NCBI RefSeq assembly: GCF_016907975.1
Contig: NZ_JAFBCY010000003.1
Span: forward strand, 62,001-126,000
Length of the DNA stretch: 64,000 bases
Direction of reading: 5' to 3'
From: Methylopila capsulata
GTDB lineage: Bacteria; Pseudomonadota; Alphaproteobacteria; Rhizobiales; Methylopilaceae
Of this stretch, positions 34,552 through 40,163 are shown in pieces. Both the position numbers and the translations under genes were made by a program. How positions within the stretch are numbered: position 1 is the first letter of the stretch; each line of letters begins with the position of its first letter. The notes under the pieces are model-generated. The model had not been told where the DNA came from. It did no database searches and worked only from the letters and a program-made list of their open reading frames with translations.

Positions 34552-34623
34552 GGGGACGCCTCTTCGACGAAGGACCGGGGTGATCTTGGGGACGCCGCGC
34601 AACCCTCTTGGCCACCCTCGGAC

Positions 34624-34713
34624 GTCATGGTCCGGCTTGACCGGACCATCCATGTCGGGCGCAGAGCGCGACGTCGGAGATGGGTCCTCCGGTCAAGCCG
34701 GAGGACGACGGAG
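34624..34713. repeat. Palindromic repeat family A, copy 1
   Basis: A 90-base element made of two hairpins, TGGTCCGG/CCGGACCA and GTCCTCCGG/CCGGAGGAC, beginning GTCATGG and ending GGACGACGGAG. It lies between gp12 and gp13; near-identical copies are at 36513-36599 and 40052-40141. Confidence 0.88.
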
Positions 34714-34745
34714 ATGGTGGCGCGGAGGCAGACAGCGAGGCGCGG

Positions 34746-35375
34746 CTATCGCAGCCGGATCTCCACCACCGGGATCGACGGGATCGCCCCCGCCTCGAAG
34801 GCGGCGAGGTCGATCTCCAGCCGGTCCATGTCGAACCGCACGGGCACGTCGAACCGGAAACCCGCGGAGACCGCGGCTCCGGCCGTCGGGGCGACGTCGA
34901 GCGCGACCGCGGCCTCGGCGAGGTCGAGCGCGAAGGCCGTGGTCGGGACTCCGGCCACCGCGACCACGACCGAGTCCGCCACGGGCTTTGCGATCGGCCG
35001 GACATAGGGGTCGAAGGCGCCGCCGTAGGTCTTGGTGAGGGGGAACCGCCGGGTGGTCCCGTCGCCGGTCCCGATCGGCTGGTCGGTCGCGGAGACCGCA
35101 GCGCCCGGCGCGGAGGAGGCGTGGTCCAGGGGGTCCTTGAAGCGGAAGCCGTGGAGCCGCCCGCGCCGCTCTTCGAAGAAGGCGACGACGGCCGCGAGCT
35201 GGGCCAGCGTGCGCACGCCGAGCCCCGCGTCCCACCGCCGCCGCGAGTGCGCCCAGACGGCGTTGCGCTCCTCGAAGCCGGAGCCCAGCGTCGCGATCTC
35301 GGTCTTCCGTTCCGGCCCGCCCCGCGCGCCGCGGGCGATGTCGGTGGGGAAGCGGACGTCGTGGAAGGCGGTCAC
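34746..35375 (-). CDS. GTA DUF2460 distal tail protein (RcGTA gp12-like)
   Basis: A 209-residue DUF2460 protein with the family's N-terminal FHDVRFPTDIARGARGGPERKTEI, the RRRWDAG segment and the FKDPLDHAS motif followed by IPVVEIRLR at the end. It forms the distal tail ring that joins tube and baseplate. GTG 35375 overlaps the tape-measure stop (GTGA). Length is normal. Confidence 0.93.
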   Translation of the reverse strand: MTAFHDVRFPTDIARGARGGPERKTEIATLGSGFEERNAVWAHSRRRWDAGLGVRTLAQLAAVVAFFEERRGRLHGFRFKDPLDHASSAPGAAVSATDQPIGTGDGTTRRFPLTKTYGGAFDPYVRPIAKPVADSVVVAVAGVPTTAFALDLAEAAVALDVAPTAGAAVSAGFRFDVPVRFDMDRLEIDLAAFEAGAIPSIPVVEIRLR

Positions 35376-35923
35376 AGCCCCCGCCTCCCGCGCGCCACGG
35401 CCCGCGCAAGGGCGGCGGAGACCTGGCCTTCGGAGCGGCGGAAGCCTTCGACGTCCGGCGTCGTGATGTTGACGGTGACGGACCCGCCGCCTCCCCCGCC
35501 GCCCGACGCCACGCCGAGCCGTCCGTCCGCGCCGCGCGTCAGCGGCAGCACGGCTTCCGGCCCCGCCTCGCCGGCGAGCGCGAGCGCCGCGCCGCCGGCG
35601 GACAGCACGGTCGGCGCCGAGAGCACGCCGCCCTTCGCCATGGGCGTGACGCCGCCGAGGAGGCTCGACACGAGGTTCGAGAACATGCCCCCGACCGCCT
35701 TTTCGGCGGGCCTGAGCGCGGCCGACAGCGCGAGCTCGGAGAGCCTCGAGCCGAGCCCCTTCAGCACGTCGGACAGCGAGCGCCCCTTAACGACGCCGCC
35801 CTCCAGCGCGTCGCCGATCGCGGAGCCGAAACCGCGGGCGAGGCGCTGGGCGTCGGTCATCTCGCGGCGGAAGCCGGTCAGGTCGACCCGGACGTCGAGG
35901 GACACAGGTTCAGGTCCGGCCAT
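35372..35923 (-). CDS. GTA tail tape measure protein (RcGTA gp11-like)
   Basis: A 183-residue protein. An N-terminal helix with DLTGFRREMTDAQRLARGFGSAIGDAL, a hydrophobic helix near 88, and a C-terminal GEAGPEAVLPLTRGADGRLGV motif, seen in phage tape measures, are followed by a G7 run and an ITTPDVEGFRRSEGQV segment. Very short compared with siphophage tape measures, which fits the short tail of GTA particles, because this protein sets tail length. Overlaps gp12 by four bases and the chaperone gene by 14. Confidence 0.9.
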   Translation of the reverse strand: MAGPEPVSLDVRVDLTGFRREMTDAQRLARGFGSAIGDALEGGVVKGRSLSDVLKGLGSRLSELALSAALRPAEKAVGGMFSNLVSSLLGGVTPMAKGGVLSAPTVLSAGGAALALAGEAGPEAVLPLTRGADGRLGVASGGGGGGGSVTVNITTPDVEGFRRSEGQVSAALARAVARGRRGL

Positions 35924-36098
35924 GGGACGTCTCCTCGTCGGGGAAGCGGGCGATCAGGGCGGCGAGTTCGGCCTTGGCGAGCGGCTTCGGGCCGGCATGA
36001 CGACGCGTCAGGCCGTCGGCTGCGGCCGCGATCTCCCGCGGGGTCGCGCGCCAGAAGGCGTCGGGGCTCAGCCGCAGCACGCCGAGGCCGAAGCCCAT
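35910..36098 (-). CDS. GTA tail assembly chaperone, second frame (phage TAC_6, DUF2376)
   Basis: A 62-residue frame with the TAC_6 signature GLGVLRLSPDAFWRATPREI. The ATG 36098 forms a TGATG junction with the stop of the preceding gene. The open frame continues upstream of that ATG as PFPWDEL without another start codon for at least 20 codons, and a -1 slippery heptamer (36113-36119) allows entry from the gp10 frame. It may therefore be made both alone and as the C-terminal part of a fusion, like lambda gpG/gpGT. It lies just before the tape measure, the usual place of tail chaperones. Confidence 0.85.
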   Translation of the reverse strand: MGFGLGVLRLSPDAFWRATPREIAAAADGLTRRHAGPKPLAKAELAALIARFPDEETSHGRT

Positions 36099-36460
36099 CA
36101 GCTCGTCCCAGGGAAAGGGCCGGTCGCCTCGCCCGGCGCGCCCTCCCCCGCCCCGCCGAAGGTCGCCTGCAGGAGGTCGGCCACCGCGCGGACGTAGCCG
36201 GCGGCGCCCTCCGCATGGGCGAGCCGCGCGACCTCGGCGTCGGCGATCTCCTCGCCCGCGCCGCGGAGGCCGCCTGCGAGGATGAGGGTCGCGTCGCGGG
36301 CGGAGAGACGGCCGCTCTCGAAACGCTCGGCCAGCGCGGTCAGGTCGGCGACGCCGAACGCGGCTTCGAGCTCCGCCAGCGCGCCGAGGGTGAGCACCAG
36401 GCGGCGCGGGCGGCCGTCGAACACGGCCTCCGTCTCGCCGCGGCGATGGTTCGCGGGCAT
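36098..36460 (-). CDS. GTA gp10-like protein (tail assembly chaperone, first frame)
   Basis: A 120-residue gene-transfer-agent family protein. The beta-rich first half (AVFDGRPRRLVLTLGALAELEAAFG) and following helices (LSARDATLILAGGLRGAGEEI) match the RcGTA gp10 type. ATG 36460 begins MPANHRRGE; the extension upstream of it comes from the adjacent repeat. The last codons contain the heptamer CCCTTTC in the X_XXY_YYZ phase (codons 115-116), four codons before the stop, so a -1 shift would give a 183-residue fusion with the TAC_6 frame. Confidence 0.85.
   Translation of the reverse strand: MPANHRRGETEAVFDGRPRRLVLTLGALAELEAAFGVADLTALAERFESGRLSARDATLILAGGLRGAGEEIADAEVARLAHAEGAAGYVRAVADLLQATFGGAGEGAPGEATGPFPGTS
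36113..36119 (-). promoter_or_regulatory. Candidate -1 ribosomal frameshift site (slippery heptamer)
   Basis: On the minus strand C-CCT-TTC is in exact X_XXY_YYZ register with gp10 (Pro codon at 36118-36116). A -1 slip leads into CCC-TGG-GAC-GAG-CTG-ATG of the TAC_6 frame. Comparable slippery sites produce the tail-chaperone fusions of many dsDNA phages; use of this one is inferred. Confidence 0.6.
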
Positions 36461-36512
36461 GGGGTCGCTCCGGATTGGGGAGGGTATGGCGATTGCGGAC
36501 AACCACGCCGCC

Positions 36513-36599
36513 GTCGTGGTCCGGCTTGACCGGACCATCCATGTCGGACGTGGAGTTCGACGCCGGGCATGGGTCCTCCGGTCAAGCCGGAGGACGACG
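36513..36599. repeat. Palindromic repeat family A, copy 2
   Basis: An 87-base copy of the element at 34624-34713 with both hairpins kept (GGTCCGG/CCGGACC and GTCCTCCGG/CCGGAGGAC); the sequence between the hairpins is diverged. It lies between gp9 and gp10. Confidence 0.87.
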
Positions 36600-36626
36600 C
36601 GTGGGGAGTGGGAATGACGGCGTCCG

Positions 36627-37037
36627 TCAGATCGTCGTGAAGGCCAGCGCGCCGGCGCTCTCGAGCGCGAGGTCGTAGGCGACCTCGCCGGCGTGGTCGC
36701 CCTTGTAGTCGAGGCCCGTCACCTGGAACGGCCCCTCGACGCGGCCGAAGTCGGGGATCACGATCTGGAACACGGCGGCCGCGCCGTCGAACACGAGCCC
36801 GCGCACCAGCGCGTCGGAGGCGTCGTCGCGGAAGACGCCGGCGCCGGAGACGCTCGCCTTCTTCACCCCCGCCCCCGCCAGCAGCTCCCGCCACCGGCCG
36901 GCGCTTTCGGAGTGGGTGACGTCGACCAGCTCCGCGTTGAACGACAGCGAGCGCGAGCGCAGCCCCGCGACCGTCGTGAAGCCGCCCGCGCCGTCGGCGA
37001 TCTTGAGCAGCAGGTCCTTGCCCTTCTGGATGGCCAT
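36627..37037 (-). CDS. GTA major tail protein, TP901-1 family (RcGTA gp9-like)
   Basis: A 136-residue tail tube protein. The N-terminus AIQKGKDLLLKI, the VAGLRSRSLSFNAELVDVTHSES segment with the typical N..LVDVT, and GRWRELLAGAGVKKASVSGAGVF identify the TP901-1/phi13-type major tail proteins. ATG 37037 starts the family sequence. Its downstream neighbour is the family A repeat, its upstream neighbour a composite palindrome. Confidence 0.95.
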   Translation of the reverse strand: MAIQKGKDLLLKIADGAGGFTTVAGLRSRSLSFNAELVDVTHSESAGRWRELLAGAGVKKASVSGAGVFRDDASDALVRGLVFDGAAAVFQIVIPDFGRVEGPFQVTGLDYKGDHAGEVAYDLALESAGALAFTTI

Positions 37038-37071
37038 GCGGGTGTCCTTTGATGGAAAGTAGACGGGAAGG

Positions 37072-37147
37072 CCCCTCACCCGGCCCTGCGGGCCGACCTC
37101 TCCCCGGCGGGGAGAGGTCGGAGGGCGCCAGCCCTCCGGGTGAGGGG
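37072..37147. repeat. Composite palindromic repeat between gp8 and gp9
   Basis: Outer arms CCCCTCACCC (37072-37081) and GGGTGAGGGG (37138-37147) enclose three inner hairpins (GGCCCTGCGGGCC, GACCTCTCCCC/GGGGAGAGGTC and GGAGGGC/GCCCTCC). It fills most of the gap between the two genes. Confidence 0.75.
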
Positions 37148-39934: not shown

Positions 39935-40051
39935 GGACGAAGACCTTTCGGGCTGAGGAAGCAAGGCGCGCCTTTCCCGATCCCGACCTGGAGGTCGGGG
40001 CGAGGCTTGCGCAAATGAGATCGAAAAGCGGCCGGCGCCGTCCCCCGCGCC

Positions 40052-40141
40052 GTCATGGTCCGGCTAGTCCGGACCATCCATCTAGGGCGTCGAGCCCGAC
40101 GCCGACTGTGGGTCCTCCGGTCAAGCCGGAGGACGACGGAG
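40052..40141. repeat. Palindromic repeat family A, copy 3
   Basis: A 90-base copy of the element at 34624-34713; the first hairpin reads GGTCCGG-CTAGT-CCGGACC, the second is unchanged. It lies between the capsid and protease genes. Confidence 0.87.
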
Positions 40142-40163
40142 AGCTTGGGGACGCCGATCCGGG

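Follow-up and report, generated by a model that had tools for sequence, protein, structure and literature searches.

The tail region of a gene transfer agent (GTA) cluster in Methylopila capsulata raises the question of whether g10 and the TAC_6 domain that follows it are two genes or one. As argued below, sequence comparison indicates that they very probably constitute a single gene, expressed through a programmed -1 ribosomal frameshift. This would merge what are annotated as two GTA genes into a single two-product gene and would identify a short, testable element controlling GTA tail assembly.

The cluster lies on the minus strand of the window (the whole 64,000-nt stretch of DNA that was analysed), with its reading frames intact, and comprises genes for terminase, portal, prohead protease, capsid, connector, head completion and tail completion, together with those for the major tail protein, g10, TAC_6, tape measure, distal tail, hub, NlpC peptidase and megatron. 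Matches at the head end are to Terminase_6N and _6C, PF05521 (head completion), HK97-type portal, protease and capsid, and TIGR02215 (connector); those at the tail end are to TIGR02217 (distal tail), TIGR02218 (hub), TIGR02219 (NlpC) and NF048004 (megatron; 1768 bits). A 166-aa ORF before the terminase gave no profile match over the cut-off. By its gene content, the cluster is an RcGTA-type gene transfer agent. The chaperone sits between the tail and tape genes, all on the minus strand: g9, the major tail protein (36627–37079; PF06199, TIGR02126), lies upstream of g10 (36098–36460; PF11836, TAC_11; Pfam E 4.6e-27), the N part of the tail assembly chaperone, and the RcGTA-type tape measure g11 (35372–35923; NF058675, 146.9 bits, below the cut-off of 220) is directly downstream of TAC_6. 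RcGTA has the same gene order around g10 and g10.1; TIGR02216, one of the two TAC_6 models, is the rcc01693 family.

The junction between g10 and TAC_6

On the minus strand, positions 36125–36096 read GACCGG CCCTTTC CCTGGGACGAGCTGATG, and in the g10 frame the junction is GGC CCT TTC CCT GGG ACG AGC TGA. As the sequence-only reading had stated, the heptamer C_CCT_TTC (36113–36119) is in X_XXY_YYZ phase, with four sense codons between it and the g10 stop, TGA 36100–36098. Translation also bears out the two product lengths it had proposed: the g10 product from the ATG at 36460 has 120 aa and that arising from a -1 slip has 183 aa, the fusion junction being ...EATGPF|PWDELMGF and the -1 frame remaining open past the heptamer to 35910. 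Slipping in the cell, and its rate, we infer from the sequence: most ribosomes would end g10 at TGA 36100–36098 to give the 120-aa chaperone, and a minority would slip from CCT-TTC to CCC-TTT at 36119–36113 to give the 183-aa g10–TAC_6 fusion. Transcriptional slippage was rejected by reasoning, a long run of A or T being absent from the site.

Bare CCCTTTC is not rare, occurring 89 and 63 times on the two strands of the genome (152 in all), and a reversed 7-mer control is commoner still (156 and 157; 313 in all). The phased form, by contrast, is scarcer than a chance placement would suggest: in the predicted genes of 400 kb of the same genome, in-frame C_CCT_TTC is found twice in 102,900 codons (0.019 per 1000), and TTT makes up 6.6% of Phe codons. 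The longer string CCCTTTCCCTGG has a single occurrence in the 4.1 Mb genome.

The TAC_6 domain (PF09550/TIGR02216; Pfam E 1.7e-19), the C part of the 183-aa fusion, starts at the slip-site Phe codon and runs in the -1 frame to the stop (36116–35910, minus strand), and position 1 of the PF09550 model falls on that Phe codon (FPWDEL). Pro-2 and Trp-3 are invariant in a 44-row alignment; Phe-1 and Trp-3 are invariant in 20 rows picked from 26 proteins, the six left out including two, L093 and L108, that begin with Ile. The suggestion that the residues before the first ATG are family sequence is, thus, upheld by the start of the Pfam model and by the invariant residues.

These residues bear directly on the alternative that TAC_6 is a separate, translationally coupled gene, re-initiated after the g10 TGA at the overlapping ATG of TGATG (36100–36096, minus strand), which is codon 7 of the domain. 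The window keeps this ATG, as re-initiation would require, and two GenBank records, MW091529 (L275 1519–1677) and MW462191 (L276 1519–1698), annotate TAC_6 from codon 7, without the conserved FPW. A start at the ATG would, however, remove FPWDEL, whereupon the TIGR02216 score drops from 67.9 to 54.5 bits, below the cut-off of 56.1. It would also remove the first residues of the predicted first helix; as this helix is modelled at residues 3–13, an ATG at residue 7 would fall inside it. Under the frameshift reading, the start of TAC_6 in public records would need to be corrected, the two records examined both beginning the domain at codon 7. The further claim that no other start codon could serve PWDEL holds near the domain, but not throughout the frame: between the preceding stop and the ATG at 36098, the only ATG, GTG or TTG codons are at codons -141 and -129.

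The junction in same-genus relatives

Among the genomes examined, PF09550 was detected in 246 of 397 from the order, 12 of 13 from the genus (M. capsulata itself included) and 45 of 385 sampled from the class. The one same-genus genome without any TAC_6 match is G215; three others, G142, G170 and G312, have extra weak matches elsewhere (L141–L145), perhaps in prophages. Five of the same-genus junctions are identical to Methylopila or Hansschlegelia junctions.

TAC_6 lies in the -1 frame relative to g10 in all 12 same-genus loci; a pseudogene or sequencing error was rejected for this reason. Absence of the heptamer from close relatives, which the sequence-only reading had named as evidence against a slip, was not seen: 11 of the 12 loci have CCCTTTC at the same position as the window, and the twelfth, L087, has no slippery site at the old place and carries CCCTTTG 15 nt (five codons) upstream. 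Eleven of the 12 loci use TTT for the slip-site Phe, whereas TTT accounts for 8 of the 39 other Phe codons in TAC_6 and 3 of 57 in g10. Together with the phase and rarity of the heptamer and the start of TAC_6 at the slip codon, this retention supports the proposed arrangement of the lambda gpG/gpGT type.

Near the domain, seven of the 12 loci have no ATG, GTG or TTG between codons -30 and +9, the region that includes the TGATG overlap; the free-gene reading, therefore, fails in these seven. In four of them (L057, L087, L090 and L109), the frame lacks such a codon as far back as the preceding stop; in the other three (L065, L076 and L084), an in-frame start exists at least 115 codons upstream. 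The rare start codon CTG is kept at the old place in five of the seven and is absent in L057 and L084, neither of which has a CTG, ATT, ATC, ATA or ACG nearby. Where a start is present, it need not signify initiation: reading the TGA stop in the other frame forces NTG-A, and a conserved Val/Leu-Met would by itself be expected to give GTGATG. We consider it very improbable that TAC_6 is a separate re-initiated gene, although, as described below, overlapping starts are common among more distant relatives.

A slip site and an ATG do coexist in the window and in L012, L024 and L048, and in species that keep the ATG both routes could operate, the slip producing the fusion and the ATG some free TAC_6. 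Against this, no GGAGG or AGGAG is seen by eye close to the ATG of the window, and the ATG is not kept across the genus; we regard dual expression as rather unlikely.

Survey of junctions across wider relatives

The first set, which was made up of the best matches plus the next 100 matches listed and represents a subset of the 246 genomes, contained 174 loci; removal of 12 (10 duplicates and two without g10) left 162 distinct junctions, 146 of them in the -1 frame, 11 in +1 and five in frame 0. The frame-0 junctions were not used as natural fusions, three of the five (L142–L144) deriving from weak domain hits. The -1 junctions were divided into class A (61), in which an ATG, GTG or TTG ahead of the domain overlaps the g10 stop, class B (75), with no start within 30 codons before the domain, and 10 others. 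Class A speaks in favour of a coupled gene, 61 of the 146 having such a start. An in-phase heptamer over the overlap was found in 66 of the 75 class B junctions and 11 of the 61 in class A (Fisher p 3.6e-17; this and the survey p values that follow overstate independence, because the loci are related). Scanning the last 90 nt gave 65 of 75 and 11 of 61, respectively, with 7 and 6 class B and 4 and 3 class A junctions in the two wrong phases, and 200 codon-order shuffles of class B produced a heptamer in a mean of 21.7 of 75 junctions (maximum 31). With the pattern restricted to XXX(A/T)3N, the counts in the g10 phase and then the wrong phases were 54, 4 and 1 of 75 in class B and 3, 2 and 1 of 61 in class A.

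Two further sets behaved similarly. The second, the best 80 of 437 candidates on named genome contigs, yielded 66 new -1 junctions after one locus without g10, 11 duplicates of the first set and two not in -1 had been dropped; heptamers were present in 11 of 16 class B and 8 of 46 class A junctions (p 3e-4). The third, the best 80 of at least 507 viral-contig candidates plus four GenBank phage loci, yielded 57 (20 duplicates, one locus without g10 and six not in -1 having been dropped), with heptamers in all 13 class B and 9 of 41 class A junctions (p 4e-7). None of the surveyed loci was identified as coming from R. capsulatus or Caulobacter. Seventeen loci of the first set, from six labelled families plus two unlabelled loci, have no start codon between -30 and +9; 16 have a heptamer in the 90-nt scan, and the seventeenth, L045, has CCCTTTC at -18. 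The 90-nt scan found no heptamer in 10 of 75 class B junctions of the first set and 5 of 16 of the second, and L201, one of two second-set loci without a start up to codon +9, shows none. Many relatives have a separate overlapping gene instead of a slip; for example, all 12 Devosia, Rhodopseudomonas and Nitrobacter loci of the second set have an overlapping ATG or GTG start. Of the two features whose conservation across the order the sequence-only reading proposed to check, Trp-3 is invariant in the 44 rows; the heptamer is retained in the genus but is not universal in the order.

Pro-Phe codons alone can make CCCTTT, and a third account holds that CCCTTTCCCTGG is kept only to encode Pro-Phe-Pro-Trp in the TAC_6 frame, the heptamer being a by-product and no slip taking place. 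Indeed, CCCTTTC occurs at this place in 11 of the 61 own-start loci, and TTT in 36 of the 61, where g10 has already ended and cannot slip; the motif alone is, therefore, no proof of slipping. Given what Pro-Phe codons can spell, the heptamers were recounted strictly upstream of the PFPW codons. The phase bias persists with these codons left out (41, 8 and 4 of 75 in class B; 11, 4 and 3 of 61 in class A). Moreover, among the 43 loci with an upstream site, 22 have TTC and 14 have TTT as the Phe codon, as against TTT in 31 of 31 where the Phe codon is itself part of the site (as the definition of the site dictates). If slipping did not occur, the no-start loci would also have no nearby start from which to make an intact domain. 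We give the by-product account almost no credence.

The sites found most often are CCCTTTC, GGGAAAG (the heptamer of families f12 and f21), CCCTTTG and, less certain as a slip site, AAACCCT. The last was seen near the end of g10 in L004, L010, L075, L079, L086, L101, L110, L119, L129, L275 and L276, and in the 90-nt scan of the first set it occurs in the g10 phase only (15 of 15). Certain heptamer-bearing class A junctions, among them L275 and L276 with AAACCCT, read AAACCCTTGA; the TTG within this sequence may be no start at all. AAACCCT may be an unusual slip site, with CCU in the A site, or may simply hold a TTG start. In the phage isolate ctuI7215 (L278 1177–1186), whose junction is annotated as two genes, GGGAAAC directly precedes the stop codon of a gene that is followed by a TAC_6-like domain in the -1 frame.

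A candidate Shine-Dalgarno-like stimulator of the frameshift, a GGAGG box at 36142–36146 (minus strand), starts 27 nt upstream of the heptamer in the window, where a weaker GAGG starts 11 nt upstream. Such boxes are enriched at the slip sites: GGAGG or AGGAG starts 6–30 nt upstream at 47 of 61 sites, compared with an expectation from synonymous resampling of 18.2 ± 3.2 (maximum 28 in 500 runs) and with 9 of 61 own-start loci when measured from the g10 stop, and all 12 same-genus loci have a box 12–27 nt upstream. The internal box may stimulate the slip, much as in the Shine-Dalgarno-stimulated -1 frameshift of dnaX, with which it shares an upstream position, although in dnaX the spacing is about 10 nt and that in the window is wider. 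A downstream stem-loop, the other element of a dnaX-like signal, was not found at these sites: four windows folded at 69 sites gave mean z values of -0.2 to -0.5, with the genus scattered about 0 and no signal over shuffles.

A quick tree of 211 rows, 177 of which were scored after TTG-start class A rows and the 'other start' class had been excluded, requires at least 21 changes of start type, the number of switches being uncertain because the tree is weakly supported. The comparison on supported branches is underpowered: its seven independent pairs favour any heptamer in the expected direction by 3.8 to 0.1 (median p 0.125) and XXX(A/T)3N by 3.0 to 1.0 (p 0.625); taking all branches of the unsupported best tree, 21 pairs give 11.7 for and 0.1 against, and 10.0 and 2.0, respectively. 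Outside the order, six loci (L150, L153, L154, L162, L165 and L172) have CCCTTTC at these same codons, which suggests, on an unrooted tree, that the slip is the older state. The chances are about even that a single GTA family uses two routes to deliver the second chaperone domain, either a slip fusion (at CCCTTTC/G, GGGAAAG/C and perhaps AAACCCT) or a free protein initiated where a start codon overlaps the end of g10, and that it has switched between the two many times. In that case, the covalent G–T fusion of lambda would be dispensable in a related tail, and GTAs would provide a natural test of the purpose of the fusion and of its ratio.

Known systems and the predicted fold of g10

In lambda, the frameshift heptamer is GGGAAAG, which is the site of families f12 and f21 in our survey; that of the window is CCCTTTC, and its proteins belong to other families (TAC_11 and TAC_6). 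The available text of PMC5009743 describes gpG as a short chaperone that a -1 frameshift lengthens to gpGT, the two acting on the major tail protein and the tape measure. For lambda, a ratio of 30:1 has been reported, and the chaperones do not stay in the mature virion. By analogy with lambda, and given the gene order, a short major and a long minor product would load the tail tube on the tape measure in the GTA.

Frameshifted tail chaperones are well known in phages (excerpts of PMC5009743, PMC3556154, PMC4882933 and PMC12846349), and shifts of 6 and 7% are given for two assayed phage tail-chaperone genes in the part of PMC3711429 available. In phiCbK-like Caulobacter phages, according to sections of PMC3556154, a -1 slip at AAAAAAC or GGGAAAC lengthens the gp93/gp94 chaperone, and gp96, gp97 and gp99 are distantly related to RcGTA g12, g13 and g15. 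Both heptamers also occur in phase at surveyed junctions; the phiCbK-like viruses are, however, phages rather than GTAs, and CCCTTTC is not among the sites reported in those sections. Likewise, RcSaxon, RcRhea and RcCronus of Rhodobacter capsulatus are phages, and the accessible text of PMC8601537 ascribes the frameshift to them and not to RcGTA g10. For RcGTA itself, g10.1 is counted as a gene of its own in the portion of PMC9765227 available, whereas one gene is proposed here.

A slip between g10 and g10.1 in GTAs is not described in the open-access literature searched, subscription papers (e.g. Xu et al. 2004) and supplementary survey tables (e.g. of PMC3711429) lying outside its scope; the available portions of PMC8601537, PMC9765227, PMC10299305, PMC8718954, PMC9022992, PMC3610622, PMC4276943 and PMC10127595 do not describe one, and a term search of the accessible text of PMC7296036 returned no occurrence of frameshift or g10. 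The mechanism is, thus, a known one (lambda-type frameshifting), apparently unreported for an RcGTA-type GTA within the open literature searched. Since some related GTAs make the two domains with a slip and others without one, these agents would allow a direct test of why tail chaperones so often use frameshifting.

The AlphaFold model of g10 (pLDDT 84) consists of a β-hairpin and five helices. Pfam labels PF11836 a phage tail tube protein; the predicted fold of g10 is unlike the β-sandwich of a tail tube. Among the 50 BFVD matches listed for the model, seven are named tail assembly chaperone (probability 0.85–1.00, E 0.006 or worse), others are named tail tube, and one unnamed match falls under E 0.001. 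A fold search of the PDB gave no match under E 0.001, and by sequence no solved relatives of g10 were found, the best hit being troponin C (E 0.51). The BFVD entry A0A345ARN5 (195 aa, Paenibacillus phage Wanderer), on which a literature search found nothing, matches both models weakly (E 0.07 and 0.23) and offers a lead as a possible fused relative.

Finally, a 92-nt palindromic repeat is present in three copies at or between genes of the GTA cluster (34623–34714, 36512–36603 and 40051–40142), and an 18-base core of the repeat has 26 copies genome-wide. The repeat may represent a dispersed element of the REP-like type, with a possible influence on how transcription proceeds across the cluster.
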